Assembly (NCBI GenBank): GCA_009192285.1
Contig: CM018604.1
Coordinates: forward strand, 3,410,001-3,474,000
DNA length: 64,000 nucleotides
Reading direction: 5' to 3'
Origin: Morchella semilibera
Taxonomy: Eukaryota > Ascomycota > Pezizomycetes > Pezizales > Morchellaceae
The notes under the pieces were generated by a model. That model was not told where the DNA came from. It made no database searches and was given only the letters and a program-made list of their open reading frames with translations. The translations under genes and the position numbers were made by a program. How positions within the stretch are numbered: position 1 is the first letter of the stretch; each line of letters opens with the position of its first letter. Positions 17,542 to 60,640 of this stretch are shown one piece after another.

Positions 17542-17673
17542 ATTGTAATAAAATGGCCAAAGTGGGTAGCTTCCTGCGCCCACTCATACTAATTGGCCAT
17601 TTTCCCTAATCCTCCTCACGTTGGCATGAGGTAATCAGGTTTTTGCTCATGGGGAGGTTGGCGGTTCAAAACA
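17542..17673 (+). repeat. SINE-like element, copy 1 (partial)
   Basis: Matches the dispersed family seen also at about 25249, 37110, 49640 and 60349. Diagnostic parts are a head 'TAATAAAATGGCCAAAGTGG', a matching inverted segment 'AATTGGCCATTTTCCC' some 40 bases on, then 'CAGGTTTTTGCTCATGGGGAG' reduced to its core, and a B-box-like GGTTCAAAAC. The head and inverted segment can pair as AAAATGGCCAA with TTGGCCATTTT. It is diverged from the other copies, so old. Confidence 0.6.
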
Positions 17674-28235: not shown

Positions 28236-28271
28236 CAGATAAAATTTCGTACGGGATAAAGAATGCGAATT

Positions 28272-28342
28272 TGATATTATAAAGATAAAACCTTGAAGAT
28301 CAAACGGAGGTGCTTTAGAACCTCCGGTTTGATAATATAAGT
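28272..28342. repeat. Interrupted palindrome upstream of the Gag-like gene
   Basis: ATCAAACGGAGGT (28299-28311) pairs with ACCTCCGGTTTGAT (28320-28333) around an eight-base loop, with one unpaired G. Outer arms ATATTAT and ATAATAT extend the symmetry. It lies about 65-100 bases upstream of the ATG at 28235, within the likely promoter or leader. Confidence 0.55.
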
Positions 28343-37109: not shown

Positions 37110-37411
37110 GGATGTTTAGAGTTGCAGGATCACTTCGTAGGAGAAGGAGGAAAGGGTGAGGACAAAAAGAGAGATGAGGGGTTGGTTGGGGGTATGTATT
37201 GAGCAGAGCAGAGAACTCGCTAAAAGAAATTTTTAAAAAAGTATAAATTCGAGTGAGTAGCCATGATTCAAAAACAGCGTTCCGAACCACCGACCTTTTG
37301 ATCAGCAAAAACCTGCTTGCCCCACTCATTCTCAGGGTGTGACAAACGAGGGAAAAATGGTCAATTTCCCGTGGACGCTACCCACTTGGACCATTTTATT
37401 ACGAAGAGACA
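37110..37411 (-). repeat. SINE-like element, copy 3 (long copy, minus strand)
   Basis: Read on the minus strand: TAATAAAATGGTCCAAGTGG head, AATTGACCATTTTTCCC inverted segment, GAGTGGGGCAAGCAGGTTTT, TGCTGATCAAAAGGTC, and a B-box-like GGTGGTTCGGAACG, followed by CTACTCACTCG, TCTTTTAGCGAGTTCTCTG and a C/T-rich tail. It matches copy 5 (60349) along nearly 300 bases, which sets the family length. Confidence 0.7.
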
Positions 37412-38208
37412 TACCTCGCAATGCTTCTTGAGGCCAGTTGTTTGTCGCAGGGGTGTCAATGATCGCCGGGGAGGGCTAGCTGGAATGGCGAAATCGCCTC
37501 CACACCACATCTCCGAAGGGCCAGACTGGCCAGGGGCGTCTTCGGAACTGCATCGGTGCCTAACTCAATCGAAATGGCAACAAAGGCGGCATTGGCCTGA
37601 AATTCGTGGTCTAAACAGCATTTATGCGGGCATCCTAACTACCTAAAATTTAGCAACCCCCTGAGAGTTCCTTCCTACCAATTTGTTTGGCCCCAGTCTC
37701 CCCATGAAGGATTGTAAACGGGCGGGCGTGGATACTAGGAGTCAACACAATTATTCGACTTCAACAGTCCAAGCATTTTTTAACCGTAGCACTTGTATAT
37801 ATATTCATGACCACAAAACCACAGTAGTATTCTTATTGATACTCATTTATGTACAGTCTGGTCCGCAAAGTTTGACACCCCCGTCTCGAAGCTCATGAGT
37901 TCAAACCGTGATATAAATGACCGCATAGCAATGACAGCGAAGTGAGGTTCATAGTTACATATTTCCACACGGCCGTCTATCACAACGTTTTGTTATGTTA
38001 AGCACCTTTCGAAGAAGGGGGCCAGGATATCTTGTTTGTTGTAACCGCGGATGTTTTTACAGGGTGCCAGGACTTTGCGGACGAGGGTGTACATGCCCTT
38101 GTCCATCAATAGGGATCAGTGATATACTGCACGCGCTCCGTGACAGGTCCATTGCTGGTAGAGGTCACCTCTCCAGCGTGGTTGTTGTTTACACCAACCC
38201 AGTGGGAC
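37412..38208. other. Gene-free stretch up to the Gypsy insertion
   Basis: No gene supported. The region ends at the target site CGACG of the LTR element. Confidence 0.45.
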
Positions 38209-38213: not shown

Positions 38214-38606
38214 TGTAAAGGGATATCTCAGAAGTCACTAAGATATGGCTAATGCTAAGCGATAGTTCTGTAGCTTTTAAACTTGTAATATTGTAGACCG
38301 GATTCCGTTCGCTTGAGAGGATGATGATTCCCCTAAGACGACGGGAGTCCTACTAACTATTTATACATAAAAGACCCCCTTAACCCCGCTAACTCCTCCA
38401 ATAGCAAATCTCCCGCAATGCCTCCGCTACTGCTCCGACTTCCTACGAGGTGGGGTAACCAAGGGTCCACTCATAAGGTATGGTAGTGGTTGCCGAGTTA
38501 TAACCGAACCCCGCTTCTGGGCGTACGTCACTCTTCTTATCGCGCCGTCATACCAGGACAATACCATTGTACCACCAGTACCGCGCTTCCAAGCAATCCT
38601 GTAACA
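38214..38606 (-). repeat. LTR of the Ty3/Gypsy element (3' LTR in element orientation)
   Basis: 393 bases, TG at one end and CA at the other on the plus strand. It appears identical to the LTR at 45220-45612 in a base-by-base reading. A purine tract (GGAAGGGGGAGTAG on the minus strand) abuts its inner edge, as expected for the plus-strand primer. Confidence 0.93.
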
Positions 38607-38699
38607 CTACTCCCCCTTCCAAGCCGTCGTCCTCGACCGTTAAACCCTTCCATGGAAAAAACCCTGTGGGAAAAGCCATGATGAGGGAAGGTATCGGGA

Positions 38700-41600
38700 T
38701 TACTGCTCTGTCAACCGTCGCTGCCTCTTAGTCTGCCGTGCTCCGGACTCCGGGGCTACTATGCCTTGACTCCGAGTGCGAGGACGGTTGCTGATGACCG
38801 GTTTGGCATTCTCGTCAGCCAGGGCCTCTTGGGGCTCTGGTGTTGCCAGCCGTTTGCGAGTGTTCTGCTTCCTATTAGGGTCCGAATCCTCTCGATAAGG
38901 CCGTAGGAGCATCTCATGGAACACATTGTGAACCTTCCAGTCTGCTGGTAGGTCTAGTCGGTACGCTCGATTACCGACCCTGGCTAGTACTTCGAAGGGC
39001 CCCGTGAACTTATCTGACCACTTGTTGTATCCGCCGAGGTTCCTGCTGTCTAACAGGATCTTCTGCCCAGGTTCGAACTGCTGTACCGCGGGACCTGGTC
39101 GTGACGCCATTTTATCGTACGTTTGCTGTAAGGTTTCCCGAGCCAGTTCATGGGCGGCGAGGATCTCGTCCAGGTGGTTATTCCCTTTGGCATCCAGCTG
39201 CTCGATCTCCACATCCGTAGGCCAGTCTGAGCGAGGGTGAAACCCATAGTTGCAGTAGAAGGGTGACTGCCCGGTTGAGGAGTGTTTGGCGTTGTTATAG
39301 GCGTATTCGCAGATAGGAAGTAGGTCTCTCCACTTCTTACCTGTGCCGGCCGTAAACGCTCGTAGGTAGGACTCCATGTGCCGGTTAGTCCTTTCCGTCT
39401 GACCATCTGTCTGCGGATGGAACGAGGTCGAGAGTCTTCTACGAATCCCTAGTCGTTCTGTGATCGCGGTCCAGAAAGCTGACACGAACTGAGTTCCTCG
39501 GTCCGATACTATTGATCGCGGGAGTCCGTGAAAGCGCCAGATGTCTTTGACGAAGGCTTGTGCGGTTTGCTCCGCGTTGATTCCTGTCATTGGGATGAAG
39601 TGCGCCATTTTACTGAAGCGGTCCACTACAACCATGACGTTCCGGAAACTTGACCGCTCCTTGGGCATCTCTACTACAAAATCCATGGAGATGTCGCCCC
39701 AAGGGGTCGTGGCTAACTCTAGGGGCTGTGGAAGAGACATATGTCGTCGTCGTTGTTTGGCTCTTTGGCATACATCGCACGTGCTGACATATTTGGCTAC
39801 ATCCGTGGTCATTCCTGGCCACCAGTAGTTCCTGTCAATCAATTCCAAGGTTTTATCTCTGCCTAGGTGCCCTGCCGTGGGTCGGTCGTGATGGTCTTCT
39901 ATGACCTGCTTGACTGCGTGCCCAGGCACTACCCAGCGTCCTTCATGAGTCGCTGTATTCTGATCGGGATCCCACTCTGTTGCAGCCTCCCGCAAGATGG
40001 TCTGCCGGGTCCACAGGTCCTCAGGATCTTCGTTGTCAGGGAGTTCATCCGGAACTATCCTACGAATCCATCGACCCTCTTCTTCATACCAGTTCTGCAG
40101 AGCCGCAGGCATTCCCACTCCTGGTATGTGTACCCACTGATCCACTGGACGCACTTCTGAGGAGTGATTGCAGAGGATTTCTTCACGAGGTTCTATTCCC
40201 GCTTGTGTCCTTCTTACAAAATGTCCGGGGAGGAGGTTTCTTTCCGCGAAGTGTTCAGGTGAGAGGAGCATTTTTACTGGCTGCTCTCGAACTACTCCCC
40301 CTTCCCTGGCGTACTCCGGGCGCCTGGTTAATGCATCAGGTTTCCCGTTTTTGTCGCCTGGTCGGAAGTGGATTTTGAAATGAAAAGGTGCTATCTTTTC
40401 AGCCCATCGGGCCTGTCTTCTTGACAGCTTCTTGGTCGTTGTGAAGTACTGAAGGTTTTGGTGATCAGAATAGATCTGGATAGGTATGTCCGTACCTTCC
40501 AGCCAATGTCTCCAAGTCAGGAGGGCGGAAACTATTGCGAGCATCTCTTTATCGTAGATCTCATAGTTGACTTCGGCCTCGGTGAACTTGCGAGAGTGGT
40601 AAGCTACCGGATGTAACTTGCCATCTTCGAACACCTGTGACAGGACCGCGGCCTCTGCCCAGTCGCTGGCATCTGTTTCAAGGACAGCCATGCGATGTTC
40701 GTCGTAGTGTCGGAGGATAGGAGCGGTGGTAAATAGCTTCTTGAGCCCCTCAAAAGCATCCTGCTGCTCCCGACCCCACTTCCATACAGCATTCTTCTTT
40801 AGGAGATCGGTCATGGGCTTGCATACCGCAGAATACCCGTAGATGAACCGCCTTAGGAAGTTGGCGAATCCCAGGAAGCATTGAAGCTCCTTCACCTTTG
40901 TGGGTATCAACCACTCAGTGATAGCCTTCACCTTTTCGGGTGAGACCTGGGTACCGCTACCTGATAGCTTGAATCCTAGGAATTCTATTTCCGTTTGGAA
41001 CCAAGCAGTCTTTCTCAGGTTGCCGAATAGGTGGTTTTGTCGTAGCCGCTCCAGCACCCTGCGCACAAGAGCTACATGCTCTTCTCTAGACTTGGAATAT
41101 ATCAGGATATCATCCAAGTAAACCACCAGGCCCTGATCTAACAGGTCCTTGAATATAGTATTGACCATTGCCTGGAACGTTGCCGGGGCATTGGTCAAGC
41201 CGAAAGGCATTACTCTATATTCGAAGTGGCCGTATTTGGTCCGGAAAGCTGTCTTCCACTCTTCTCCCTCGGCGATTCTTACTAGGTTGTAACCGTTCTT
41301 GAGATCGATCTTGGTGAAGAAGAGAGCTCCCTTCGTCGAGTCTGCCAGCTCTGTCATGAGAGGCAGTGGGTACCGGTTCTTGACTGTGACGGAGTTTAAG
41401 CCGCGGTAGTCGACGCATAACCGTAGTGACCCATCCTGTTTAGGGACGAAGAGGATCGGTGCCGCTGCTGGGCTGGAAGATGGGACAATTTTACCTGCCG
41501 CTAACATTTCGTCCAGGTATTCCCTCAACGCTTTCTGTTCCGGGGGTGACAATGCATAGATAGGCCCCCACGGAGGTTGGCTTCCGTCCAAGAGAGGAAT

Positions 41601-42248
41601 CGTATGATCCCACTCACTATGTTCCGGCAGGCGTCCTGCTCCTTCAGGGGAGAACACATCTGCGTAGTCTTGGAACTCTTCCGGGATAGCACTAGCGAGA
41701 GTCTCGCTTCCCGTGTTTCGTGCCCAGAAAGGGTGTGACTCAAGAGGCATGTCAGGTTCCGGCATGTGTCGTAGAAGTCTAACGACCTTTTCTTGCCAAC
41801 CTTCTTCGTACATGTCTCCTTCTGTCATCATGCAACCCTTAATCTGACACTTGATACTATTGAAGGTAACCTTGTTCAGGCCCCAATGTATCGTAGGTTG
41901 ATGCTCTTCGAGCCATCGATGTGGTATGACGAGATCTTCTCCAGCAAAGGTACCGATTTCGCAGGTGATTAGCCTGTCGAGGTGGCTACCAATGCGGAGT
42001 GTGAGAGGTTGGGTGATGTGAGTACCGGAGTGTGGCATACGTGAGCCATCAGCTTGTTTAATGAGGAGAGTTGTGGGGCGGGTCTGGACTGGGATGTCGG
42101 CCTGCTTGACACAGTTCCAAGACATAATCCATGTCTCGGTGCCGCTGTCTAGTAATGCTTGAATGGTATGGGTGAAGTGTTTATTGGTTTTAGGGTTGAG
42201 CCATGAGATCTCTGTCTTGAGGCGGGTTTCTTGTATGATGGTAGTCAT
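38700..42248 (-). CDS. Ty3/Gypsy Pol polyprotein (protease-like, reverse transcriptase, RNase H, integrase)
   Basis: One 1,182-residue frame from an ATG at 42248. Order: retropepsin-like segment with LLDSGTE near residue 35; reverse transcriptase at about 240-420 with VDYRGLN, KIDLKNGY, MPFGLTNAP and the catalytic VVYLDD near 380; RNase H at about 520-640 (LETDASDW, YSDH); integrase with HHCC zinc finger (H and GHLGR, then C-x-x-C in CDVCQRAK) and the DDE core (SMDFVVE, IVSDRGTQF, HPQTDGQTER); and a GPF-type end (TGPFEVLARVGNRAYRL). Domain order protease-RT-RNase H-integrase is diagnostic of Ty3/Gypsy. Confidence 0.95.
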   Translation of the reverse strand: MTTIIQETRLKTEISWLNPKTNKHFTHTIQALLDSGTETWIMSWNCVKQADIPVQTRPTTLLIKQADGSRMPHSGTHITQPLTLRIGSHLDRLITCEIGTFAGEDLVIPHRWLEEHQPTIHWGLNKVTFNSIKCQIKGCMMTEGDMYEEGWQEKVVRLLRHMPEPDMPLESHPFWARNTGSETLASAIPEEFQDYADVFSPEGAGRLPEHSEWDHTIPLLDGSQPPWGPIYALSPPEQKALREYLDEMLAAGKIVPSSSPAAAPILFVPKQDGSLRLCVDYRGLNSVTVKNRYPLPLMTELADSTKGALFFTKIDLKNGYNLVRIAEGEEWKTAFRTKYGHFEYRVMPFGLTNAPATFQAMVNTIFKDLLDQGLVVYLDDILIYSKSREEHVALVRRVLERLRQNHLFGNLRKTAWFQTEIEFLGFKLSGSGTQVSPEKVKAITEWLIPTKVKELQCFLGFANFLRRFIYGYSAVCKPMTDLLKKNAVWKWGREQQDAFEGLKKLFTTAPILRHYDEHRMAVLETDASDWAEAAVLSQVFEDGKLHPVAYHSRKFTEAEVNYEIYDKEMLAIVSALLTWRHWLEGTDIPIQIYSDHQNLQYFTTTKKLSRRQARWAEKIAPFHFKIHFRPGDKNGKPDALTRRPEYAREGGVVREQPVKMLLSPEHFAERNLLPGHFVRRTQAGIEPREEILCNHSSEVRPVDQWVHIPGVGMPAALQNWYEEEGRWIRRIVPDELPDNEDPEDLWTRQTILREAATEWDPDQNTATHEGRWVVPGHAVKQVIEDHHDRPTAGHLGRDKTLELIDRNYWWPGMTTDVAKYVSTCDVCQRAKQRRRHMSLPQPLELATTPWGDISMDFVVEMPKERSSFRNVMVVVDRFSKMAHFIPMTGINAEQTAQAFVKDIWRFHGLPRSIVSDRGTQFVSAFWTAITERLGIRRRLSTSFHPQTDGQTERTNRHMESYLRAFTAGTGKKWRDLLPICEYAYNNAKHSSTGQSPFYCNYGFHPRSDWPTDVEIEQLDAKGNNHLDEILAAHELARETLQQTYDKMASRPGPAVQQFEPGQKILLDSRNLGGYNKWSDKFTGPFEVLARVGNRAYRLDLPADWKVHNVFHEMLLRPYREDSDPNRKQNTRKRLATPEPQEALADENAKPVISNRPRTRSQGIVAPESGARQTKRQRRLTEQ

Positions 42249-42627
42249 TTTGGTATGGGTAGGTTGTGGTAGTAGTAAAGGAGGATGTTCTTCTCCTCGA
42301 GGCGGGTGAAGCCTCTTATATAGCTAAGTGCGGGGTAGCTCCGACACGTCATGCCCAAAGAATACCTTGCCCTAGTCACGAGTTCTTACTTTGCATCGGC
42401 AGTCTCTCCACAGGGTTATGGCAAGTCAACAGTGCGCAGTGCGTCTACTGTCCGCTATCTGTGTGGCCCCTCTGATTTCCGAACTTCTAGACTCGAGTCT
42501 TGGTTTCTGGCAATGGCCCTTGCTTTCTCGCAATATAGTTTATATAAAGAGATTTATTCTCGCGCCCTAACAGCTAATTTATCCTTAACCCAAATTTTAA
42601 GAAAACCATAAGAAAACCGTAACAATT

Positions 42628-44805
42628 TCAATCTTCCCCGAGTGCCGTAATCCTAGCCCTAAATGCCTCGCCTTGAGGTCCCAATTTCTGCTTTTTCTCA
42701 CTCTCCCCTTCCGGTTCCTTCGTCCTCGAAGTTTTATCTTCCGAGTCCCTTTTCCTTTTCCTCCCACTTGATCGTTCCGTCCTACCTGCCATCCTGACCT
42801 TTGAGGTCGAGTAACAATCCTTCGTCCAGTGACCCTCTCTTCCGCACCGAAGGCATTTATTCTCCTTCGTCCATTGGTCTTTCTCCGCTTGGGTGGCTCC
42901 TAAGCTACCTGTCGCTGGGCGAGGTCTGTGCGGGGAATCCTCTCGTTCCTTTCTACGGGGACGGGATTCATCACGCTCCTTTTTACGGGGGCGGGGCTTC
43001 TGGCGTTTGGACTCTTGGTGCTTAGGTTCTCGGGTTTCTTGGAGTTTTGCTGGCTCTCTTCCTCGCAGAATCTTCTGGCGGGCTCTGACTTCAGCATCTT
43101 TTCTTCCCACCCTTCGAACCCATGCTAATCAATCTGGAAACTCAGATGGTTCTTCAATCGCAGCGGATAGTCTCTGTTCCAACGTGGAGTTTATTTCTGT
43201 TAGGATCATGGACTTCATGACGATTGGGCCGACTCAAGCGTCCCACTCAAGGTTTTGCATCTCGTTGATGTAATCGTCGATAGGACCAGTTTGACGGAGA
43301 TTATCCATCTTCTGCTTGGCCTGTTCTTGACTGGTGCGATTACCATACTGGATGCGAAGTTCCTGCTTAAAGCGTTCCCAAGTACCGAGCCTAGGTTCTA
43401 CACTAAGCCTTTCCTTAAAGTTGCGCCAGAAACTTGCTGCACTCCCGGTGAATTCCAGGGATGCCCAAAGGATTCGAGTCTTATCATCCCAGATGACTCG
43501 GGGTTGAAGGTCCATTAGGATCTCCATTCGGTCGATCCAATGGCGGACATCTTCATCGGGTTTGCCAGAAAAGGGGATTTTTGCCTGCTTGGGTGTCTCT
43601 CCCTTGCGATGGCTGGGGGGTACCGGTGACTGCGTTTCTGCTCGTCGGTGGCGCCTTCCTCTCCTTCTCTTTTGTCTCCTATCATCATCGGAGGAGCTGG
43701 ATGAGTCCGATGAGCTTGGACTGTCATCCCTCCTGTGCCTTCTTCTTCCTCTCCCGCCACCATTTCCTCCACCATTTCCTACCGCTCCCTTCTCCAGTAC
43801 AGGCTCCTCCTCTCTCCTACGTTTACCGTAGGATCTTCTGGGTGGTGGAGACGGGGATTTACTCCTCCTCCTGTTGGCTGGGGGTGAGGGTAGCGGTGCC
43901 CTTCCTTCTCCTGGTGAGTCATTCTCAGACTCAACCCGTGGCTGTTTTCCCTTAAATGCTTCCAGGGCTACCTTTAGCATTTTCCTCAACTCTAGTCGGA
44001 TGGCGTCGGCAGTGGGGGTAGGCGCCCTTGGTGGTGGGACTGCCTGTGCTGCTGTCACAGTTGCCGCTAGTCCCTCGGGTAACTCCAGGTTTTTCTCTGC
44101 TTGCTGAGCCTGTATATAGGCTGCTAGCGCCTGGGTTTGTTGCCGTTGTTGCTCATTTTCGAGGGCCATTTGCCTGAACCTTAGCTCAGTTGCTTCCTGT
44201 TGATTTTGCGCGTAGGCTTGGAACTGGCTGGCTAGGGTGCCGAGGGCGGTGGTTATCTGCCCTTGTTGTCCTTCTACTTCCCGGAACTTCCCTTGTAACT
44301 CTCCTACCAGTTGTTGTCCGCCTTGGACTACCTGGCCGTGTTGATGCTCCCTTGCCCTAGCTTCTGCCCGAAGGGCCCAGTCCGTCTGAGCCGCGAGACC
44401 TCTCATGCCCTGGACGAGTACCTCGGTCCTGAGGGGTCGTGGGGTCTCCTGCTCGTAGGACTGTTCGTCGACGGAGGAGGTGCTGGCGTAGCTGGCATCG
44501 CTCATATCCCCATCCGAACCAGAGCGCCTCACTGTAATAGTGGCTTGCCTGGTTGGAGTCTCGAAGGGGTTGAGGTCCATGCTGGCGGAGCTGCGCGTGA
44601 TCCTCTTCGGGTCTCGCTTGCGGACCTTCTTCGGGGCTTTGGCCTTGAGGGGGGCCGGCTTCCATAGCTCTGTGGCGGGGGTGTCTCTGGCCCTGCTGGC
44701 TATTGCGGGATGGGCCTGGGCCATGGCGGTGTCTCTGTCTCGGACCACGATGGCTTCCGCCATGTTGTGGTCTTCCTGTGAGGTCAACGCTAGTGGGAGG
44801 GACAT
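42628..44805 (-). mobile_element. Gag region of the Ty3/Gypsy element
   Basis: Parts in order: a Gln-rich coiled-coil head, an Arg/Ser-rich basic stretch, a retrotransposon Gag domain (FSGKPDEDVRHWIDRMEI, then TWERFKQELRIQYGNR), and a CCHC zinc knuckle (CLRCGREGHWTKDC) in a highly charged tail. It precedes pol on the same strand, with about 380 bases between the two. The region appears broken about once. Otherwise it is well preserved, in keeping with the young LTRs. Confidence 0.88.
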
Positions 44806-45219
44806 CTTTGAAGAATTCGATGGGGAGGTCGGGGGTGGTGATGCACCAAGGTAGAGGAGTAAACCAAGGTACCGAGTGCGCTAAGCCGTGAGAGTTTTGG
44901 CGAAGCGTTATGAGGATGGAGGGGGTGGAGTTGGGCTCAAGGATACTTTCCTTGAAGGTGGCGATGGTGCGAGCTTCTGAGAAGAAGCCTTGGTGTTGGA
45001 GGTAGCCGCAGTAGAGATGTTCTGCGCTGCCTCGAGGAACGAGAAAGGAGGTTTCACAGGGGAAGCGAAGCATGTACTAATCCTCTTGATCACTACTTCT
45101 TATACCGAGTGCCCGTGTACTATCCGTACCTAGCAATCACACAAGGTAATCGAAGTGTTGTCTTGAGAAATGTAGTAGGCTCGCTTAGGAGGTGTGCGAC
45201 CGGATAAGGTACAATATAG

Positions 45220-45612
45220 TGTAAAGGGATATCTCAGAAGTCACTAAGATATGGCTAATGCTAAGCGATAGTTCTGTAGCTTTTAAACTTGTAATATTGT
45301 AGACCGGATTCCGTTCGCTTGAGAGGATGATGATTCCCCTAAGACGACGGGAGTCCTACTAACTATTTATACATAAAAGACCCCCTTAACCCCGCTAACT
45401 CCTCCAATAGCAAATCTCCCGCAATGCCTCCGCTACTGCTCCGACTTCCTACGAGGTGGGGTAACCAAGGGTCCACTCATAAGGTATGGTAGTGGTTGCC
45501 GAGTTATAACCGAACCCCGCTTCTGGGCGTACGTCACTCTTCTTATCGCGCCGTCATACCAGGACAATACCATTGTACCACCAGTACCGCGCTTCCAAGC
45601 AATCCTGTAACA
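45220..45612 (-). repeat. LTR of the Ty3/Gypsy element (5' LTR in element orientation)
   Basis: 393 bases, apparently identical to 38214-38606. In element orientation it lies upstream of gag and should contain the element promoter. I could not identify the tRNA primer site next to it with confidence. Confidence 0.93.
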
Positions 45613-46408: not shown

Positions 46409-48919
46409 TCAAAAAGCCTCATCCCAATCGCCCTCCAATGTATCCTGCATATCCAATTCAAAGCGGTGGAAATATTCATGAGGATACCCACGTTCGAGGT
46501 GGTGAGACCCCGACTCCTCCTGCATATTCTGAACACGAGAAGGGGAGTTACTGATCCAACCAGATCGGGAATAGTGTCTTCCGTACTCCTGTGGGTAGTA
46601 TTCCTGAGGCTCCTCAGATGCCGAAAAGCGGCTGGACCCTGTTGGCTCCTGACTTCCAGACGCCCACTCTATATTCCCTGAATTGCGACGATCAAACCCT
46701 TCGGAAAACTGGGTGCCAGATCCGCGAAATTCGTTGCGATCTCTATTATTGTTGTCATAATGAGTGTGCCTATTTCCACCTCCTTGGTGACTTTGCCTTC
46801 CAGTCTCCTGTATGCTAAATGATTGCAGTGAGTGAGTGAATCTCCCAGAATAGAAAGCCCGTGAGCGTGAGTTGTGAGGCGCATCCCCCGTATAAGGCGA
46901 AGCCCGCGCTCCATGTCTCGTGTCTGTGGTCTGATAGGCTCTCTCTAGCTGTCGATGAGGAGCGGGGGTGGAATGAATGGATTCCATGAGTGTTCCGCTA
47001 CTAGTGCGATCTATGACATGAGCTGATGTGCGCATTGCGGGGTTGGAATGGATAGATGCCATGAGTGTTCCTCTACTAGTGCGATCTATGGCATGATCTG
47101 ATATGCACATTGCGGGGTTGGAATGGATAGATTCCATGAGTGTTCCGCTACTAGTGCGATCTACGGCATGAGCTGATATGCACATTGCGGGGTTTGGTGC
47201 ATTCATCGTCTGCCCGTAGAATTCTTGGGCCCTCCGGAAGTTTTGCTCGGGGGTTATTGGGCGCCGGGGATTAAACATGCCACTAAGAAATCCCTTGGAG
47301 CTCGAGGATGCATTTTGGTCGTACTGGTGCGTCGGTCCGGCCTCTGGCCTATTTCCTCTATGGGAGGTGGCTCCCCAACCCCCCATTTGGTTGCCACTGT
47401 TGAATCCACAGCCATCCTGGGAGATTGGACCTCCCGCGATAGGCTCACCAGTTGGACGCAAAACTGATCGTCTTTGTTGCTCACAGAGGTCCATACGATC
47501 CTCAGGATTCTGCCCCTCTACATGGTGAACGTGGCCACTATCGCTGATATGGCTGGTTGCAAAACGAGAGACCGAGTCTTGTGGGAAGATTGACTCCCGG
47601 TAAGAACCCTTATTATCATTCATGGAGTCCCATGAAGATGTAGAGCTAGTATCTTCCGCACCTGCGTCCTCTATTAGCATTGGGCGATATTTTGGGCATG
47701 AGTTCTGTCCTACCATGTTGATGCTTCCCCTCTTGAAGTTGGAAGAATATCTCACTCCCGTTTTCAGAGCAGTCCGCTTCGCTCAAGTCTGCAGATACCT
47801 CGCTTGGACAATCGAAGTCAGGCGCCCTCTTGACTGTAGCCTTTCTCCTCGTATGACCCACGTCTGGATGGGTATGATGATGGTCGTGGGATTGATATGC
47901 CTTGCCAGCCTCTCCCACATCCTTGTCGGGTACATTTGAAGCAGCAAATGTTTTAATCTTCTGCAACTTTACCTCCTCCTCACTTCTTCTTTGAATCTTG
48001 ACCTTATCTTGTCCTTCCTGTAACTCCCTCTTTATTTTGTTATCGATCCACCTCTTTTTGTTTGCCTCATCTTCCAACCTCTGCATTTCATCTAGCTCCG
48101 CGATTTCCTCTTTCAATTTACGCAACTTTGCGATCCTAGCGTCATGTTGAAAGGTACTAGGTAACGGCATCTGATCCCAGTCGAGGCATAGATGGAGCTG
48201 GTCTTGAACAGCCTCAAGAATGACTGCATGTAGCTCACGATAAATTGCATCAAATTCCTCCGGAAGGACCTCTTCGAACGATCGTGCAATATAATTCTTT
48301 AACGAGGCAGGCCACTTCAGTTGCCACTTTGTTCCACGGCCGGTGTAGATCTGTGGTGGGGGGATATGTTAATTTGGGGTTGTATTTAATCGAAGGGAGA
48401 TGGGACTAAACTTACAAATGCGGTGTCTGGCTTTGGCTGCAAATGCGCTTTAGGCTCCCAACCAGGGGGAAGTATCGGAGGACTATACTTCTTCTTCTCT
48501 GTCGTGCCATTCTCTGGCTTCGCCGTTTCTGGCTGCCTCGGACTTGTACCAAGGTCTGAAAAAGAGAACGCGGTACAATCAGTAGTGCTAGGTTCCGCCT
48601 TCCTACTCGAGGTAAACGGAGCCCGAGAAGTAGCGCAAGTACCCGCACCATATGTATTTCCCTTCTTGGTTGAATCGCTATCAAACGCACGCCCATCCTT
48701 AGATGATGGCCATGGAAAGTATGGAGGAGGGAGGTCTAAGCTATTTTTGCGCTCTGGCTTGGTGCGATGCAAGTCGGGCGGTGTGTCTCGCTGCTCATCT
48801 CGCGTTCTTGCGTTCTGTGCAGGGGTGGCGGGGAAATGAGTATGGTTCCCACTGTGGATCGGCGTAGCGTCGGGAACATGGGCTTGCCCTCCATGGTATT
48901 TGGATGGCCTGTGGGGCAT
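46409..48919 (-). CDS. Hypothetical 797-residue coiled-coil protein with three 25-residue repeats
   Basis: Three exons, 48416-48919, 47714-48350 and 46409-47661, joined by GTAAGT/CACAG and GTAGGA/GCAG signals and in frame throughout. The second intron has a nearby alternative acceptor (CTAATAG) that also keeps frame. Exon 1 is disordered and Pro/Ser/Lys-rich. Exon 2 begins with an ordered segment (IYTGRGTKWQLKWPASLKNY, then FEEVLPEEFDAIYREL) followed by a charged coiled coil at about residues 239-300 (KLRKLKEEIAELDEMQRLED) and a His-rich patch. Exon 3 holds the tandem repeats at about 535-610, each like MCISAHAVDRTSSGTLMES, then a long Ser/Arg/Tyr-rich tail ending in an acidic helix (FELDMQDTLEGDWDEAF). 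Family not recognised. A mobile-element origin is possible, but no Gag or zinc-knuckle motif is visible. Confidence 0.68.
46972..47196 (-). repeat. Three tandem 75-bp repeats inside the 797-residue gene
   Basis: Units start at about 46972, 47047 and 47122 with a period of exactly 75 bases, so each adds 25 in-frame residues. The copies differ at several positions that change residues (for example AHAVDRT, DHAIDRT, AHVIDRT), so the expansion is not brand new. Confidence 0.88.
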
Positions 48920-49639
48920 GATGAAGGTACTAAAGGAGAGGTGTCCTAGATGGTGTACGTGTAAAGGCTTGCGTTGGGTGGCGTATTAATATTTTCAACT
49001 TCCATGAAAGTGAAATAGGATGGGGGAGAAGAGTGGCGTTGTGTAAAATATTTGGTTCAAAACGGGTAACAGAAGCGGGTCCTACCCACCGATAGATCAG
49101 ATCTCGATAACGATACAGTTTTTTGAACTCGGGCTCTATCTGTCGCCCTCCACACCACCACTGTTATCAACTATACAAAACTAATGGGTTCTTAGCTATC
49201 CGTTTACAGTGATAACACAAATATCTCTAGGCACGTAACCATTCAACCAACATCCACCAGCGCGTACCACACCACGCTACCACAATGCACTACCAGATCA
49301 GACGCGACAGGACCTTTGTCTCAATTTGATTTTTAACTAAATACCAGATTACAGAGGTAATCCGCCCTATTTCTCGGGAGCAAACTACCAAGCCCCTAAG
49401 CTGTACGGTTCCCCGCCTACCCAAACTCCACTTGACTATGCTTGACACCACCACAGGCGTGGACAATATCTGAGAAACCCATAAGCCGCCCGCCCACTCA
49501 GAGGCACAAACCCGGTTTACAGCCCACCCCCTTCCCTCTCAACTGCACTATTCCAGCTCCGGCATCTGGGGCCTCTATTCCATGGCGTGCAGATCCACAC
49601 CCTCCCTCAATACTGCCCTTGAATATTCGGTTCGAAACT
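48920..49639. other. Gene-free upstream region
   Basis: Upstream of the 797-residue gene. No TATA box or further gene is convincing. Confidence 0.4.
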
Positions 49640-49790
49640 TGTCCTTTCGTAATGTAATGGTAAAGGTGGGTAGAGTTAATGCGCCCTTCTATAGTAATGG
49701 ACCATTTTCTTTGGTTTTTGGTTTCCACACCCTGATATGAGTGGGGGAACCAGGTTTTTGCTGATCAAGAGGTTAAATTAAGACTGCTCA
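49640..49790 (+). repeat. SINE-like element, copy 4
   Basis: TAATGGTAAAGGTGGGTAG head, ATGCGCCC, TAATGGACCATTTTCTTTGG inverted segment, ATGAGTGGGGGAACCAGG, TTTTTGCTGATCAAGAGGTT, then a shortened B-box region and the tail GACTGCTCATCGGA, which matches GACTGCTCACTCGGA in copy 5. Intermediate divergence. Confidence 0.65.
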
Positions 49791-52228: not shown

Positions 52229-52573
52229 ATGCTTGCTGCTTTATACACTCGTTATCAGCTTGCCCGCCTCGACAAAAAAATTGAAACACTCCAGCAAGCC
52301 ATTGACAGCGACCCCGCAATCGCACGACACAATGATCTAGAGCAACGCATCTTGGAGATTGTTCTCCAGCTCACCACCAACAATGAGGTGAAGGATGCGG
52401 ATTATGAGTTATGGGAAACAACAAACGCCATGCTGTCCCGCGAGAAGGCGGTACTGCAGGAGAATCAGAAGCCGCTCTCAGCAGAGCAGAGGGAGCTGGT
52501 ATCAAGGCTGAAGAGGGTGAGGTTTGAGAGATGGGTGGCGGAGTTAAAGGCGGATACGGGGGGTGGCAGATGA
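52229..52573 (+). CDS. Small coiled-coil protein A, family 1 (114 residues)
   Basis: The start chosen is the ATG at 52229, because the 37 residues before it in the same frame have no counterpart in the relatives, while from here MLAALYTRYQLARLDKKIET aligns with them. The pattern shared by family 1 is: aromatic/hydrophobic N-terminus, Y-x-x-x-L-x-x-R/K-I-x-x-L-E/Q, D-P/x-A, a helix, an N-rich break, W-x-x-x-N-A-x-L-x-x-E-K, then P-L and a basic C-terminal helix (RLKRVRFERWVAEL). A is the most diverged member: it has QKPLS where the others have RVPLP. It is the only one on the plus strand. A short direct repeat (GGCGGATACGGGGGGTGGCAG-type, core GATACGGGGGGTGGCAG) spans its stop codon. Function unknown. 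Confidence 0.7.
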   Translation: MLAALYTRYQLARLDKKIETLQQAIDSDPAIARHNDLEQRILEIVLQLTTNNEVKDADYELWETTNAMLSREKAVLQENQKPLSAEQRELVSRLKRVRFERWVAELKADTGGGR

Positions 52574-55369
52574 GGAAGGCGGATACGGGGGGTGGCAGAT
52601 GAGGAAGCCGGCGGGGGCGGGAGTGCATGATATAGTGGAAGGGATATGAAGTTGATAGTTTACGCTTCAGGGTGAGGAACAAAATGAATTAAATGATGGA
52701 ATTTGTTGAATTGGAGATACTGATGCCGATACTTGGATAGAAATATAAATCACTGCTACCCAGTAGTTTCTCATCTGAAATACTATTCTTTACCAGTCCA
52801 CTGAGAATTGTGCCCAAAGGGAGGTCTTGTCGAAACCACACTCCTACGAACGACCGCTGTTGCCAGGGTGTTCAAAGATGCTCCCTCACCATCTATCATC
52901 GTAGGTTCCACATTAAGATATCTACTTGATATGGGCCCTGTTATGAACTTGCCATCTGTAATCTTCCATCCGCCTGGCCGTGCAAAGCACGAACCGGTGG
53001 TACATATTTCTAACCGCTCACAAACACCACCTAACAGCCCCTAAAGAGGCAAGGGGGGCACTGTCCCTTCCATGAGTATTACATGCCCCCACCCCAGACC
53101 TATGAGAGGGAACACGGAGGGGCTCGGCGTCACGCTGGCGGTTTCCGATCATCTGCCGCGCTCTTACCCCCTCGTTTCCCCGTATTGTGGCCATGTTCTC
53201 CCCTTGCCAAAAACCTTGTCCTTTAGTTCATCCCAGCTTAGAGATAGCCGTATGTAATGGAGGCAGAAAAAAGGTTTTATGCAAACTCACCGACACAACC
53301 GGGTAAGCCAGCCTGTTGTCTGACGCCGATGATCGAGCTTTCAGAGGTTGAATACAGTTATGATGACGGGCCGTACCGCGTACCAGCTTCACCCGCATAA
53401 AGATATATTGCGACCAATGACACTCCCGAGCTAGAGGTTGTTCTTTTATATTTGTTGTTTGGGGTTTAGAGTTTTATTTAGAGTGAACATAGTAAGAGTA
53501 CTTACGCCTGGTTTGGTTTTACTTGGATGTATGATTAGAAGAAAAAGTTGCTTATTTACATGTAGTGTAAGCCAGAAATCAATCACCCATGGCCCACCAA
53601 GCAAAAGGCCTCTCAGGGTACAACGAGACCCTAGCTGTATCTCGCAAGGACAGACAGAAGTATGAGTAGTTGTATCAGGATAACCAGGGAAGAGTGTATA
53701 AGTAGTTGTTCATTTAGAAGAAGGGGCGTACCCGTCCCCTCTTGGGATAATTATGAAAGTAATAACCACTAATCACCATATACGGTACCCCGCCATTGTG
53801 AGCCTTAAATATAAGGAACTCCATAATATACATCACCTCCTACGGAAGCCTAAGTAATGGCTACTCAAAATGTTGAAGCAAACGTCAAAGCCAGTAGTTT
53901 GATAATATCGCTGTGTAGTCAATCATCAACCACTCGACTATAAGTCTCGGAGTGGCGGTCTCTCATAGCCCCCGGTATTTGATTCCTTCACAAAGCCTAA
54001 CCAACTACGCGGTCAACAAGGTGACATCACCCTTGACGGCTGGAAATGGCAGAACGCAAAGTCCGTGGGCGCGAGCCCGAGGTGAATGGCGCGACGGGTT
54101 GCTCCAATGAAGGTCCCTGCCAAGACCCCCGAGGATGCGCACCAGCACCGATCACTGCCACAACGTAACCTCAACCCACCAGCCTCACTCAACCACAATG
54201 ATACACAGAAATGAAAAGAAAAAATGCTATCAGTACCATAAACCGAACATACGCCCTCTAGGAACTGGATATACAAGTATTAAATCCCTATGGGACCGCA
54301 ACGAGAGCTATGGCTCGCTTTCACAAGTAAATGAACATTGGGAGATCAGTGGGCGCTAAACCCGCAAAATAAGTCGAAAACTTTAAAGTAGTGCTCCTGG
54401 TGGGACGCTTGAGCTAAGGGAACTCCCGCGAGTAGGAGGTCGATCTATAAAGTTTTCCTCCTCAATTTCCTAGCAGTTATGGAGTAGTAGCTATTTGAAG
54501 TTGCGCTCCCGTTCCTATTTTGGTTGCAACAAGAATGTCCAGCTACTCATGACCCAACAATTAATACTAACCACTGTACTACACCGACCTGCCCCGCGCT
54601 TCGGTGGGATGTCATTTTGGCGCTTTTTGGGAGGCTTGGTAGTAAAAGGCTTCTTTCTTTCTCTCACCAGGAATTGGGGTAAATTGCATAGCGCGTAGTC
54701 CTTCTTAGTTGCTGAGCGTGGTGGAATTACGAAGTATGGGTCTTGATTGTTTCTCGTAGTCTTGGCGACCTTACAGTTTTTTCTTCTCAGTTCTAACACC
54801 AAACCTACGTCTACAACAGATTCCAGAGTGTGGTACTTAATTTTGCACGACACCACACAAAAGAGAGGTGAGCGCTCCTCAGTGAGAAGTTAGATCTTTC
54901 CCCTTTTACTTACTGAATTCTCAGGTACTACCCTCGTCCTTTCGCGGAGCTATACGCGGTGACCGAGAGACCAGGGCTATTTGAAACTTCGTAGAGCAAG
55001 CTGACCGCGGCTAAAGCTCGTCGGCGTGGTCTACGCCTGAAGGTGCCGTCCCCCCAATCCACCACCCACTACTCCCAATGATACATAAGGCATCCGCGCA
55101 CGTTAACAATCGAAACTTTAGGAACTCCTTCTCTCCACTAGATCCTCTATGAACCATCTAAGGGCATGCCATTTCCTTGTTGCGGTCATGAGTTAGTGGA
55201 ATGGTGAAGGTAAGTCAACCAGGTTCTTAAACCAAAGATTTTGTTTATTCTGAGAGTCTCCTAACCATCCCAACCCCAACCTTGTCTAAGTGCCTACTGG
55301 TTTAACTGACCCCGCGCTCTAATCACTAGCTCCCAAAGCTCCCCCCAACTCCCGCCTACCCCCCCCCCC
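52574..55369. other. Gene-free stretch
   Basis: About 2.8 kb with no supported gene. Frames at 54013-54276 and 54495-54856 overlap on opposite strands, one lacks an ATG, and none shows a domain. No repeat family recognised. Confidence 0.45.
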
Positions 55370-55753
55370 TTAAACCCCCACGCTCCTTTCAATCACCGAC
55401 GGCGGAACATCATAAATCCCGGCAGTACACAGCTCAAAAACATACCTCCGCAACCTCAACTCCCGCAGCTTGGACAAGGCCTCCTTCGTTCTTTCTGGGT
55501 GCGGCACACGCAAACCCTCTAACCTTGACCTCTCAATCAGATGCTCTTCGTTCTTAGCGACACAGATATCGAGATGAGCGTGTCCTGCTGCGAGTGCGGT
55601 ATTGTTTTCTGTAATGCACTTATTGATGTCGGCGATGAGAATGCTAAGGTGCCGGTTGTGCTCGATGGCAGGATCTTTGGCGAGTTCGGCCTCGAGCCTT
55701 TTGATCCGGAGGCCGAGGTACGTGATGTAGGCGATGTTAAAGAGGGTCGTCAT
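55370..55753 (-). CDS. Small coiled-coil protein B, family 1 (127 residues)
   Basis: ATG at 55753. N-terminus FNIAYITYLGLRIKRLEAEL with D-P-A after it, a long amphipathic helix, an N-rich middle (CITENNTAL), a charged segment, then LRVPHPERTKEALSKL and a basic helix LRELRLRRYVFEL. The tail is short and unlike the other members. The frame is uninterrupted. A TATATAAG box lies about 120 bases upstream. It shares its layout with C (57230) and D (58780) on the same strand, with A inverted. A role in coiled-coil self-association is inference from the heptad-like spacing. Confidence 0.72.
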   Translation of the reverse strand: MTTLFNIAYITYLGLRIKRLEAELAKDPAIEHNRHLSILIADINKCITENNTALAAGHAHLDICVAKNEEHLIERSRLEGLRVPHPERTKEALSKLRELRLRRYVFELCTAGIYDVPPSVIERSVGV

Positions 55754-55867
55754 TATAACGGCGGCAACGTGCGGCGGTTAGTGAAGAGCGCAGTGGTGTT
55801 CGAGCGGTTTGGAAAGCTAGTAATGATGGAGTACTCTTATGGGGAGACACCAGTAGGAGATAAGGAT

Positions 55868-55875
55868 CTTATATA
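55868..55875 (-). promoter_or_regulatory. TATA box of small coiled-coil gene B
   Basis: TATATAAG on the minus strand, about 115-122 bases upstream of the ATG at 55753. Confidence 0.55.
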
Positions 55876-56834
55876 CTGCGCTTTGGAACAATTATACTAT
55901 GTTGGGCCGGTGAAACCCACTTCCCCGTGTTGTTTGCACCTGCGAAGAGAATACTAATGCTGCTGTTGTTACAAAGGACGCAACCTCTTCCGTTTGAATA
56001 CCATAAAAAATAGGAGGGGACAACGAATTTCTATCTTGGTAGCCCTGTCAACCACCCCTTCTCCGCATATTCAAAGTGAGCAGGGCCTGTTTGGTTGAGT
56101 GTGGTATTGAGTACTATGGTACTCTAGTTTTTTGGTATTCTCCCCCTAAGCAATACGAGGTACGCAGGCTCTTGGTTGTATTCGGTTATTTACCAAATGG
56201 TAGCTAACATCTTTTAAGTTGCAGGTCCAGGCCGGATTCCTGGTTGGGTAGATCAAATATCCTTATAGGTATATATATTAATACCAAGCTCCTGCTACAT
56301 CTATACAGTATTCTGGCCCGCCGAACACCCACCGACCATGCTTTTGAGAATATCATAGTAATACGATCCAATAGAACCCCTAAGCCTCTAATAGCTCTTG
56401 ATGCATGGGGAATCCTGGTGCGTGCGGATAACAATCCTAGGTCCATCGTTGATTTAAATACGCTGCGTCGGCTGAGGCACCCCTGGCGACTACCTACTAT
56501 ACTTTTCTCTTCTCATCTTGGCCAATGATAGAGGACGATATGTGAGAGTCCCTTCTACACCTCCGGGCGGTAAAGGACGAATGCTGGTATATAGGCTCGG
56601 AACAGGCCCCGGATTGTTATCCCGGTTCATAGATTATCACTCGGTCGTCTTATCCAAGTCTCGCATCGTTTTTGAAAAACTTGATTCATGAATTGAGCCT
56701 TAAAGCTAAGATGTTACCTATCTTCTAGGTCTCACTTACCTCCATCTCTAAATTCCAATTTCTTACTCACCTAGTCAGGTCCCTATATCGGTCATCATCC
56801 AATCTCTCTATCTATCCAATATCCATAACTGAAC
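55876..56834. other. Spacer between small coiled-coil genes B and C
   Basis: About 960 bases. Frames at 56204-56528 on both strands overlap and have no domain. No repeat recognised. Confidence 0.45.
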
Positions 56835-57230
56835 TTACTCTCCATCCGCAGCTTGCGATTCCGGAAGTTGAATAACTACGATCTGTATCGGCTTTCTCCT
56901 CCCCATGTACATCATAAATACATGCTTGCGCAGCTTATAAAGGCGCAGCTTAGCCAACAACTCCCTCGGCTTGTCTGGCAAGGGAACTCGCTGGCTCTCA
57001 AGGGCCGCCTTTTCGGCTGAAAGACTTGCATTCCTTTCAGCCCATGTATTTCTATTCGCTTCTACTCCAAGCGTGGCCTTGTTTTCGTCCATGCGCAGCA
57101 CAACCTCGGCGATTAGGCCGTCAATGCGGAGCTTTGCTTGGTATGCCTTGTCTTTGCCTAAGTCGGCTTCGAGACTCTTGATGCGGCGGTCAAGGAAAGC
57201 GATATACACTAGGTCGAAGATGCGAGTCAT
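56835..57230 (-). CDS. Small coiled-coil protein C, family 1 (131 residues)
   Basis: ATG at 57230. FDLVYIAFLDRRIKSLEADL, then GKDKAYQ, a helix with MDENKATL, W-AERNASLSAEKAALES, QRVPLPDKPRELLAKL and LRLYKLRKHVFMMY. It is closest to D by eye (shared RRI-x-x-LEA, W-x-x-RNA-x-L-x-AEK and QRVPLP). The tail after the basic helix (PIQIVVIQLPESQ) is unique. The frame is uninterrupted. A TATATAGGG box lies about 135 bases upstream. No known family recognised. Confidence 0.74.
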   Translation of the reverse strand: MTRIFDLVYIAFLDRRIKSLEADLGKDKAYQAKLRIDGLIAEVVLRMDENKATLGVEANRNTWAERNASLSAEKAALESQRVPLPDKPRELLAKLRLYKLRKHVFMMYMGRRKPIQIVVIQLPESQAADGE

Positions 57231-57362
57231 GGTGTTAATCTGGATAACCTTGTTAAATTTTAACTACTAGGGGTAATTGTGTCGGAATGCGCGGATATAA
57301 TGTGTGATGCCTGCAGAAGCGGTGGTGGTATGTGGTGTAGGAAAGGGTGTAAGTTACATGTA

Positions 57363-57371
57363 CCCTATATA
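57363..57371 (-). promoter_or_regulatory. TATA-like box of small coiled-coil gene C
   Basis: TATATAGGG on the minus strand, about 135 bases upstream of the ATG at 57230. Confidence 0.45.
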
Positions 57372-57726
57372 CCATCTACATCTATGTTTATGATAATGAA
57401 CATTTCATGTTGAAATATCTTATTGACTACTCCGTTCGTAAACTGCTATCAAGATCAACTCTAGATACAAGACAGTCTTCCGTAACACTTGAAAGCAGTA
57501 TGAAATCCCACACCACTAGCGCCTTGCACCTATCGACTACCGTTTGCTGTCTCTTCCCTAGCGGACCAAACAATTTGCTTTGATCCTCTCCGCGTTATTT
57601 CGCCCCTCAAAGAGGACCTGTATCTTGATCGGCCTCCGAAATCTCAAGCCTCGCTGGAACACTACAAGCTGTAGAGCCAGCGACTTATACTACCTTACCC
57701 TCAAGGTTAGAAGGGAGAACCAGCGC

Positions 57727-58089
57727 ATGGCCACAACCTCATTTTTTACTCTCTTCCCTTCCCAGAAGGGTGAGCTCGGTGAATGGAGAATATGTTTTCA
57801 GCTCGATCCCGGAGATCTAGATTATTCTGAGGGACCGCCGGGGGGATCTCGTGCTCTCCAGCGAGACCTAGAGTGCTCTATTATGTCTCATATGCAAGAC
57901 CCCGCAACTATGAAGCTGATGCTTTACCCTTGTGCTCCCCGAATAACCTCTGGTTCGTGGAAAATTCTAAAGTTGATTATATTATATACCTGGGAGCCGG
58001 GTATACAATCTGGGAGCGGTGGAAGTAACGAATTTGTCCGCCAGGTGTCTACTGGCTTTAATACCCGTCGGTGGTATCTCATATGCTGA
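57727..58089 (+). CDS. Possible hypothetical protein between coiled-coil genes C and D
   Basis: The open frame is longer, but its first ATG is at 57727, leaving 120 residues. Segments such as MATTSFFTLFPSQKGELGEW and IMSHMQDPATMKLMLYPC look protein-like, and the base composition fits neighbouring genes, but no domain or relative is recognised. It may be a chance frame. Confidence 0.22.
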   Translation: MATTSFFTLFPSQKGELGEWRICFQLDPGDLDYSEGPPGGSRALQRDLECSIMSHMQDPATMKLMLYPCAPRITSGSWKILKLIILYTWEPGIQSGSGGSNEFVRQVSTGFNTRRWYLIC

Positions 58090-58387
58090 TACGACGTTAT
58101 ACCCCAATAGACCTCGGGTCGATTAGCTTTTTACAAAGGCGGGAATAGCAAGGCTCATATGTTATCACTCGACGTCCAGGTCTACGCTACCGATGGTCAT
58201 TATTTATTGTCTTCATTGATGATAGCGGTCCTTCTTGGAAACTCCTGTTGATAGAATAAATAATTTTATTCTATCTTCATATTCTCATTTCTTCTAACCC
58301 TCTCTCTACCTACTCTAACACTATCAAACTTTGTCCTTCCTATCCAATCTTGTCTCCTCCACAAACGTTCCACTAACACCCAACCAA
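58090..58387. other. Short spacer, pyrimidine-rich
   Basis: C/T-rich sequence just downstream of gene D. Nothing else is visible. Confidence 0.4.
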
Positions 58388-58780
58388 TCAGCTTCGAGCA
58401 GAGGAGGCACGGTCTAAACCCGCCATGCGCCCTTCAAGTTGGCTTCTCTCTTTCGAATAATTCTTAAACACAAGTCTTCTCAACCTATAGGTGCGTAGCT
58501 TCAGCCACAGTTTTTTTGACGCCTCCGGGAGTGGCACTCTTTGGTCGCAAAGCCTTTTCTTCTCGGCCAATAGGTATGCATTTCTGGTCCTCCATCGTTC
58601 CACGTCATCGTCCGCTTCAACTTGCGCATCATTGCCTCTAATTACGGCCTCTAGTCCATCGATCTCAATCTCGAGCTTCCGCCTATTTTGGAAGGCTTGG
58701 TCCTCGGCTTGCTCGGCTTCGAGACCGGAGATGCGCCGGTTGAGGTAGCGGATAGCGATGGCATTCATGAGATGTGGCAT
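58388..58780 (-). CDS. Small coiled-coil protein D, family 1 (130 residues)
   Basis: ATG at 58780. MNAIAIRYLNRRISGLEAEQ, then AEDQAFQ, an acidic helix (IEIDGLEAVIRGND), then VERWRTRNAYLLAEKKRL, DQRVPLPEASKKLWLKL and RTYRLRRLVFKNY, with a basic-acidic tail. The motif order matches B and C exactly. The frame is uninterrupted. A CTATAAAT box lies about 170 bases upstream. Its leader, like those of B and C, is not obviously similar in sequence to its relatives, so the duplications are not recent. Confidence 0.74.
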   Translation of the reverse strand: MPHLMNAIAIRYLNRRISGLEAEQAEDQAFQNRRKLEIEIDGLEAVIRGNDAQVEADDDVERWRTRNAYLLAEKKRLCDQRVPLPEASKKLWLKLRTYRLRRLVFKNYSKERSQLEGRMAGLDRASSARS

Positions 58781-58956: not shown

Positions 58957-60344
58957 AGGCTGTACTTGAAAGAATTATATTCTTGATTCCAGAGGCATGA
59001 AAAAGGTGGGGGTTGGCTGTCAACTTGGCCTTAAGGTTCAAATCTACTTCACGGGAGTATGAATCAGTAACATTTGAATACCTCAACCCAAGGGATAACC
59101 TGGCAATTCATACCTTTCAATCCCACTCCCCACACCTCCGGGGTAATGTCGCACAACATATCGGGTTCTTGACATTGTCTAGGGAGGAAATGAGGCTCCC
59201 TGATCTTGATGTAGAGTAAAGTCCGTACGTGATTACATTCATAGAGTATCGGGAGTGTTGAGACTACAAGACGTAATGTAATCTCACCTAAGACTAGTTA
59301 AAATAAGGCTAAAGACGGAGCGTGGTCCAAAGCTAAATCCAAGTCATAAGCTCAACATGTTATTTAAATTAATGCTCTCAAGTGTCTGCACTAACCTCTC
59401 CCTCTACCCTATATACAAGGGGAAAATCAAACACCCTAAAGCAAATATTACTCCATTTTTAACCGGGTAGAATAAGAGAACGTTGCGACACGCAATACCA
59501 ACGAAAAGAAAAGAGTAGCGAGGGTCAATAACCGTTTTTTCGACCAGGAGTAAGAAATTATCTGTGCTCTCAAGCGGCTGGAGACCAGTTGGCGGACTGT
59601 GGAGGGGCCGCATGAGTCGCTTGCTTAGTTGTATGCTGCTATCGATATCTTGTCGGTGGAGCCTAGAGAATAAATCATAGCCAATATGGTGGGGGCGGGG
59701 TAAGACATATTGTGAATAGTGGTTGCTGCAAGCAGATAGCAGAGTGAGGTGTGGGAAAGAAGAACACGTTGGTACAGACCTAGGCCCGTACCCAGCCCTC
59801 CTACCTGACGTCTCGTGTTTATGCAGTCGATTGGTTACCCTTCCGAGACGACAAAATATCTCACACCGGGTAATATTTTTTCCCTACTTTAAAGCTTAAT
59901 GACCATAAGACAAACCCAAGACCGTGCAAGCCACAGCGACCTAACCTCTGACAGCGAGATTCCCACTCATGTGCGGCCGGCAACCACTGAGCCTTCCCAC
60001 CCAGGTCCCACTTCACTTTGATGGGGTGTTAAACATTAACACGGACATACGGACACACCTACACCTATATATTCACACGGGATAAGTGGCTCCGATTCCG
60101 TCTATTCCCTCAACTACGCTGGTCAGGCTTTGAAGGCTATTTCGGGGGTGACATAATTTCTGGATCCATTACCTGAAGCATCAATAGTTGGTTCCACCAT
60201 TTCCGCTGTGAGCTGCACCGGGATCAGGTATTTGTGTTCCCGTCCCCCGCCGTCACCATACATCCCCAAAGATGTCGGAGCCATGTCTAGTCCCTCCGGC
60301 ACACTAACAACCTACAAACCCCCCCAAGAAGCAATATAAAACAT
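58957..60344. other. Gene-free stretch
   Basis: About 1.4 kb with no supported gene or repeat. Confidence 0.45.
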
Positions 60345-60640
60345 GTCTCCTTGTAATAAAACGGTCAAGGTAGGTAGCTTCATGCGCCCTCCAATATTTG
60401 CAATTGACTATTTCCCTTTGTTTTCCACTCTTTGAAATGAGTGGGGCAGTCGGGCCTTTGCTGATCAAGATGTTAGTGGCTTCGAATCCCGGTTTTAAAT
60501 CATGACTGCTCACTCGGACTTTCTTTCTTTCGCAAATGTCTTTTAGCGAGTTCTCTGTTATGCACAAGGCATACCCGAACCCACTCACCCATTCTCCCTT
60601 TTCTTCTCTCTTTCAAACGATCCCGCAAGCCGCCAAACCC
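60345..60640 (+). repeat. SINE-like element, copy 5 (best copy)
   Basis: TTGTAATAAAACGGTCAAGG head, ATGCGCCC, CAATTGACTATTTCCC inverted segment, GAGTGGGGCAGTCGGGCC, TTTGCTGATCAAGATGTT, then the B-box GGCTTCGAATCCCG, GACTGCTCACTCGGAC, TCTTTTAGCGAGTTCTCTG and a C/T-rich tail leading into C and A runs. The B-box is close to the pol III consensus GGTTCGANTCC, so a tRNA-derived origin is likely. Confidence 0.72.

Follow-up and report, generated by a model that had tools for sequence, protein, structure and literature searches.

Fungi harbor taxonomically restricted, tandemly duplicated families of orphan genes, and many of their families of secreted proteins consist of small members that have been duplicated locally and have diverged. 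Annotation readily overlooks small genes that lack known domains. Here an analysis is presented of four small, neighboring open reading frames (termed here members 1 to 4) within a stretch of 64,000 nucleotides of the Morchella semilibera genome (GenBank assembly GCA_009192285.1, contig CM018604.1, positions 3,410,001 to 3,474,000 of the forward strand; this whole stretch is called the window, and all positions below refer to it). That the four frames belong to one protein family is nearly certain, and they have plainly been duplicated locally; judging from the sequence, they are probably real genes of that family, which arose by old local duplication and have been maintained through selection on the protein. 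The frames, and a tandem repeat that overlaps one of them, are as follows (E denotes the expectation value of a match):

52229-52573, + strand: member 1 (P0001), 114 amino acids, the most divergent; open frame; leave-one-out profile E 9.7e-13; 25-29% identical to members 2 to 4 (101 columns).
52547-52611, no strand: 29-bp tandem repeat of 2.2 copies, spanning the last codons and stop of member 1 (Tandem Repeats Finder).
55370-55753, - strand: member 2 (P0002), 127 amino acids; open frame; BLASTP E 9e-22 to member 3; leave-one-out profile E 7.4e-21.
56835-57230, - strand: member 3 (P0003), 131 amino acids; open frame; leave-one-out profile E 3.5e-28; AlphaFold helices predicted at residues 2-25, 28-55, 57-79 and 86-111.
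58388-58780, - strand: member 4 (P0004), 130 amino acids; open frame; BLASTP E 4e-23 to member 3; AlphaFold helices predicted at residues 2-26, 28-56, 60-79 and 86-128.

Each frame starts with ATG and stays open over the coordinates that an earlier, sequence-only reading had given it. Members 2 to 4 are coded on the - strand (the + strand reading of their coordinates has stops) and lie head-to-tail, their start codons (55753, 57230 and 58780) being spaced by 1477 and 1550 bp; member 1 is inverted relative to these and lies about 2.8 kb away. This layout would be the product of old local duplications, which left three copies some 1.5 kb apart in one orientation and the fourth in the other. Among the 400-bp flanks of the members the best match has E 0.26 upstream and 0.075 downstream, and the duplications therefore look old; 8-mers common to at least three of the four flanks number none upstream and one downstream. 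Downstream of member 4 lies an AT-rich imperfect palindrome of 26 bp (58250-58275, 84.6% self-complementary).

All six pairs of members are homologous far above chance. BLASTP compares members 3 and 4, 2 and 3, and 1 and 4 at E 4e-23, 9e-22 and 7e-8, respectively; tblastn within the window yields 4.7e-14 for members 2 and 4 and 5.5e-9 for members 1 and 3; and BLASTP of open segments yields 5.6e-7 for members 1 and 2. Leave-one-out profiles, searched against the 2116 six-frame segments of the window, recover members 1 to 3 at the E values listed above and member 4 at 1.4e-24, with the runner-up segment at 1.7 or more, and the four-member profile finds no fifth member in the window (next E 0.33). 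Pairwise protein identity is 25-42%, with 14 invariant columns in the four-member alignment; mean pairwise identity peaks at residues 80-85 (53%), is 38% over residues 86-105, and after residue 105 is only 10% (gaps included). The sequence-only reading had described a single order of motifs common to the four. The homology behind that description stands; L-x-x-[KR]-I-x-x-L occurs in all four members and 'VF' in three, but the motif string as written is idealized: its first element, Y-x-x-L-x-x-R-I-x-x-LEAE, has an exact match in none of the members, while W-x-x-RNA-x-L-x-AEK and RVPLP each match exactly in two (members 3 and 4 in both cases).

Selection on the protein despite diverged DNA, which had also been proposed, is borne out by the pairwise and profile E values together with neutral simulations, with a codon model in support. 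At the DNA level little likeness between members is left, the best blastn match between any two being 28 bp long (E 0.002). Members 3 and 4 are 56, 62 and 40% identical at codon positions 1, 2 and 3, where composition alone leads one to expect 26% at position 3; across pairs 2-3, 2-4 and 3-4, third-position identity is 35-44%. Neutral evolution was simulated starting from member 3, with realignment and 500 replicates at each of five levels from 0.5 substitutions per site upward. At 1.0, 1.5 and 2.0 substitutions per site, for which median third-position identity is 44, 30 and 29%, none of the 500 replicates at any level reaches the scores observed for pairs 2-3, 2-4 and 3-4. Moreover, no replicate at any of the five levels reaches the 3-4 score while also showing that pair's excess of identity at the first two codon positions relative to the third. 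For pairs involving member 1, no replicate reaches the observed scores at 1.5 or 2.0 substitutions per site. Frame decay was simulated separately (2000 replicates per frame, substitutions only): after 0.5 neutral substitutions per site a single frame stays open in 0.75-3.75% of replicates, and the product of the four simulated rates, for all four frames remaining open, is about 1e-7. From the homology and the neutral simulations it follows that these are genes rather than chance frames.

The codon model gives a ratio of nonsynonymous to synonymous substitution rates (dN/dS, or omega) of 0.19, with twice the log-likelihood difference (2dlnL) against omega = 1 being 57.9. On the 101 gap-free columns, omega is 0.19-0.20 and 2dlnL about 52 under each of three tree shapes, which their likelihoods do not separate. 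Because a protein-guided alignment biases such a test, codon-shuffled and realigned controls were run; none of the 60 reaches 57.9 (median 21.3, maximum 50.8). The likelihood ratio is thus supportive of constraint without deciding the matter; the weight of the case lies in protein similarity set against third-position divergence. Compositional evidence was also considered: GC content at codon position 3 minus that at position 2 is high in the members. Among 97 other segments of the window, 2, 1, 2 and 9 reach the values of members 1, 2, 3 and 4, respectively, and an exon of a Gtr2 gene (described below) ranks first.

Structure prediction, which covers two of the four members, suggests what such a protein would look like. 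AlphaFold, given the four-sequence alignment, predicts four helices in member 3 (predicted local distance difference test score, pLDDT, 79.5; predicted template modeling score, pTM, 0.58) and in member 4 (85.1 and 0.58), with helix borders no more than three residues apart, save that the last helix ends at residue 111 in member 3 and 128 in member 4; predicted long alpha helices make up most of both proteins. The sequence-only reading had called the proteins coiled coils. Their helical nature is thereby predicted for these two members, but the heptad signal is not clearly distinct from that of shuffled columns: among 12 tests (four helices by three residue sets) three fall below 0.05 uncorrected, the lowest at 0.027. 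Net charge is +2.8 to +8.8 over residues 80-112 and -5.4 to -0.5 over residues 1-79. No 19-residue stretch has a Kyte-Doolittle mean above 0.80, and a membrane span is therefore unlikely.

On this basis the genes, apparently intronless, would each encode a soluble protein, lacking a hydrophobic stretch long enough to span a membrane, in which three predicted helices, acidic to neutral, lead through a short turn, which is conserved (R-V-P-L-P in members 3 and 4), to a basic fourth helix; selection would have kept these proteins while the surrounding DNA lost all detectable likeness. Their action would most likely be non-catalytic. Helices 1-3 may form a bundle, possibly homo- or hetero-oligomeric; the fourth, basic helix may hold an acidic partner, such as a nucleic acid, an acidic protein or a membrane surface. 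This mode of action, in which a helical bundle with a basic last helix binds a partner, we infer from charge and predicted helices; it is offered tentatively and is rather unlikely to be right as it stands. More doubtful still is the bolder idea of an undescribed family with a four-helix architecture unmatched in the PDB, whose diverged copies would form hetero-oligomers or would specifically recognize each other or varying partners.

Several observations weigh against these being selected genes of one family with a product of this kind. The family is known from a single genome's sequence. Member 1 lacks most of the motif residues, its C-terminus falls within the tandem repeat, and the neutral test is weaker for its pairs, the scores of pairs 1-2, 1-3 and 1-4 being reached by 23, 2 and 13 of 500 neutral replicates at 1.0 substitutions per site. 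At 0.5 substitutions per site, 325, 452 and 251 of 500 replicates reach the scores of pairs 2-3, 2-4 and 3-4, and at 0.75, 3, 25 and 1 do so; third-position identity at these two levels is 64 and 53%, higher than for any observed pair. The shuffled controls likewise yield a low omega (median 0.04) and 2dlnL values up to the maximum given above, and in a first, badly optimized control run one of 40 reached 59.7, over the real value; the likelihood ratio alone is therefore weak. The members are at or near synonymous saturation, which makes omega rough, and two of the six pairwise fits (1-3 and 1-4) hit the divergence limit, with a 2dlnL of 0.00 for 1-4. A frame antisense to the gag-like gene (27690-28187, second on the list) carries the compositional signal as well, which for that reason is weak evidence. 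Whole-protein net charge, finally, varies from -1.4 to +6.6.

Chance or decayed frames (i.e., pseudogenes) might be suspected from the low identity among members, but this explanation is strongly disfavored and was rejected on the BLASTP E values, the leave-one-out profiles and the neutral simulations. A different question is whether the frames are instead exons of larger spliced genes, so that the domain described here would be only part of each protein. Member 1 has 37 more in-frame codons 5' of its ATG; BLASTP of stop-to-stop segments extends the similarity up to 8 codons 5' of the ATG for pair 1-2 and 4 for pair 3-4; and residues 106-131 are the unconserved stretch noted above. Apart from this, however, similarity sets in at the ATG and dwindles ahead of the stop, and the five spacers around the frames have in common only matches of 11-25 residues (E 0.011-0.035), so that a larger spliced gene appears unlikely.

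The frames might also derive from a transposable element, for instance as a domesticated small element frame, given that the window holds a Ty3/gypsy element (polyprotein frame 38700-42323), a separate gag-like frame (26151-28433) and the end of a hAT transposase. Yet neither terminal repeats nor common flanks were found around the four copies (by self-comparison of the window and of the 400-bp flanks, which have no notable likeness), the 64-kb window has no further copy, and the weak Pfam matches of the members are to no transposon family; such an origin is accordingly quite improbable. Nor is it at all probable, in spite of the small, locally duplicated and divergent character shared with many fungal secreted families, that these are small secreted proteins working outside the cell. 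Mild hydrophobicity is seen at the N-terminus of member 3 (best 11-residue mean 1.81), but the hydrophobic residues there sit in a predicted helix together with invariant L13, I17 and L20 and charged residues; for the other three members the corresponding mean is 0.51-1.34; and members 1 to 4 have 0, 3, 0 and 1 cysteines. Selected, locally duplicated genes thus remain the probable explanation of the four frames.

The surroundings differ in part from their first description. The sequence-only reading had placed the frames in a 'repeat-rich' setting, which was not confirmed: between 52.2 and 58.8 kb there are one tandem repeat (that of member 1), one C-rich tract (55328-55374, resembling another at 60628) and no dispersed repeat in common with the rest of the window (self-comparison at E 1e-4 with low-complexity masking and no repeat library). 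Elsewhere, pieces of a dispersed repeat at 60322-60602, 49635-49775, 37165-37433 and 17514-17605 are 70-90% identical and lie in both orientations. As for the stretch being otherwise 'gene-free', 8 of the 20 longest other segments starting between 50 and 61 kb were scanned, and none of these 8 has a Pfam match at E 0.01. The Ty3/gypsy element is a long terminal repeat retrotransposon on the - strand (38214-45612), whose terminal repeats match over 398 bp at 99.7% identity, with a 5-bp duplication, CGACG, at both sides and a long open pol frame; it looks like a recent insertion. The hAT transposase end (31512-32366; Pfam dimerization domain, E 8.6e-12) is adjoined by a 407-amino-acid frame (32411-33634) that matches nothing in Pfam and may form the remaining part of the transposase. 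The frame at 20325-20936 codes for a G protein of the Gtr2/RagC type (E 9.6e-33 to Pfam Gtr1_RagA; the best match in the PDB is Gtr2, at E 7.7e-38). With this frame and the transposable elements, the gene content of the window is eukaryotic and has a fungal look. Two - strand frames, 300-1313 and 1631-2512 (the latter ending in a cysteine-rich stretch), are 31% identical over 48 residues (E 5.6e-5), have no Pfam match and may be another locally duplicated pair of orphan genes. A direct repeat of about 75 bp in three copies (46962-47194), within the frame 46409-47782, encodes a repeated 25-residue peptide. Rfam at its gathering threshold and ARAGORN have no match in the window; a sigma-70 scan, which is not meant for eukaryotes, counts 14 promoter-like sites where 10.2 are expected and 7 terminator-like sites where 7.5 are, and was not used as evidence.

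As to known families, the earlier statement that no named family shows this pattern holds for Pfam, NCBIfam and PDB sequences. None of the four members exceeds a curated cut-off in Pfam-A (best E 0.015, 15.3 bits versus 29.5) or a cut-off in NCBIfam (member 3, best E 0.021, 14.8 bits versus 24; the others E at least 0.033), and a sequence profile finds nothing significant in the PDB (the best hit, to a viral endoribonuclease, is at chance level, E 0.54). The collections searched for relatives were prokaryote, phage, plasmid and viral, none of them fungal. Of the lineage-specific expansion suggested by the sequence-only reading, the local duplication is plain, but a restriction to one lineage is more than the evidence supports. 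No relative was found in viral contigs (with the four-member alignment, the three-member alignment, member 4 or member 2) or in prokaryote genome contigs (with either alignment), both being weak negatives since each scan rests on one to six short peptide patterns, nor in plasmids and phages by tblastn with member 3 only (E up to 0.1). In the part of the literature covered by a text search, which cannot look by sequence, the family is neither named nor described.

In predicted structure, the two modeled members resemble segments of SMC and Rad50 arms and the helical hairpins of Vipp1/PspA, which are among the best Foldseek rows, in having long paired helices. They differ from these in that, among the best 50 of 435 and 50 of 496 PDB matches, E is at least 0.087 and the root-mean-square deviation at least 8.0 Å; there is no significant match to the Vipp1/PspA (ESCRT-III-like) fold (Foldseek E at least 0.28), no significant sequence match, and no Foldseek match at E of 0.001 or below in the PDB (both models) or a viral library (the member 3 model). 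The Foldseek matches appear to reflect generic helix pairing only. Four divergent neighboring copies, with a core that can be read from sequence alone, provide a ready set for work on expression, on interactions and in sister species. What they share with fungal orphan families is small genes, local copies, no known domain and fast divergence around a conserved core: the four members are an uncatalogued orphan family, but one of a familiar, ordinary kind rather than a new kind of system.

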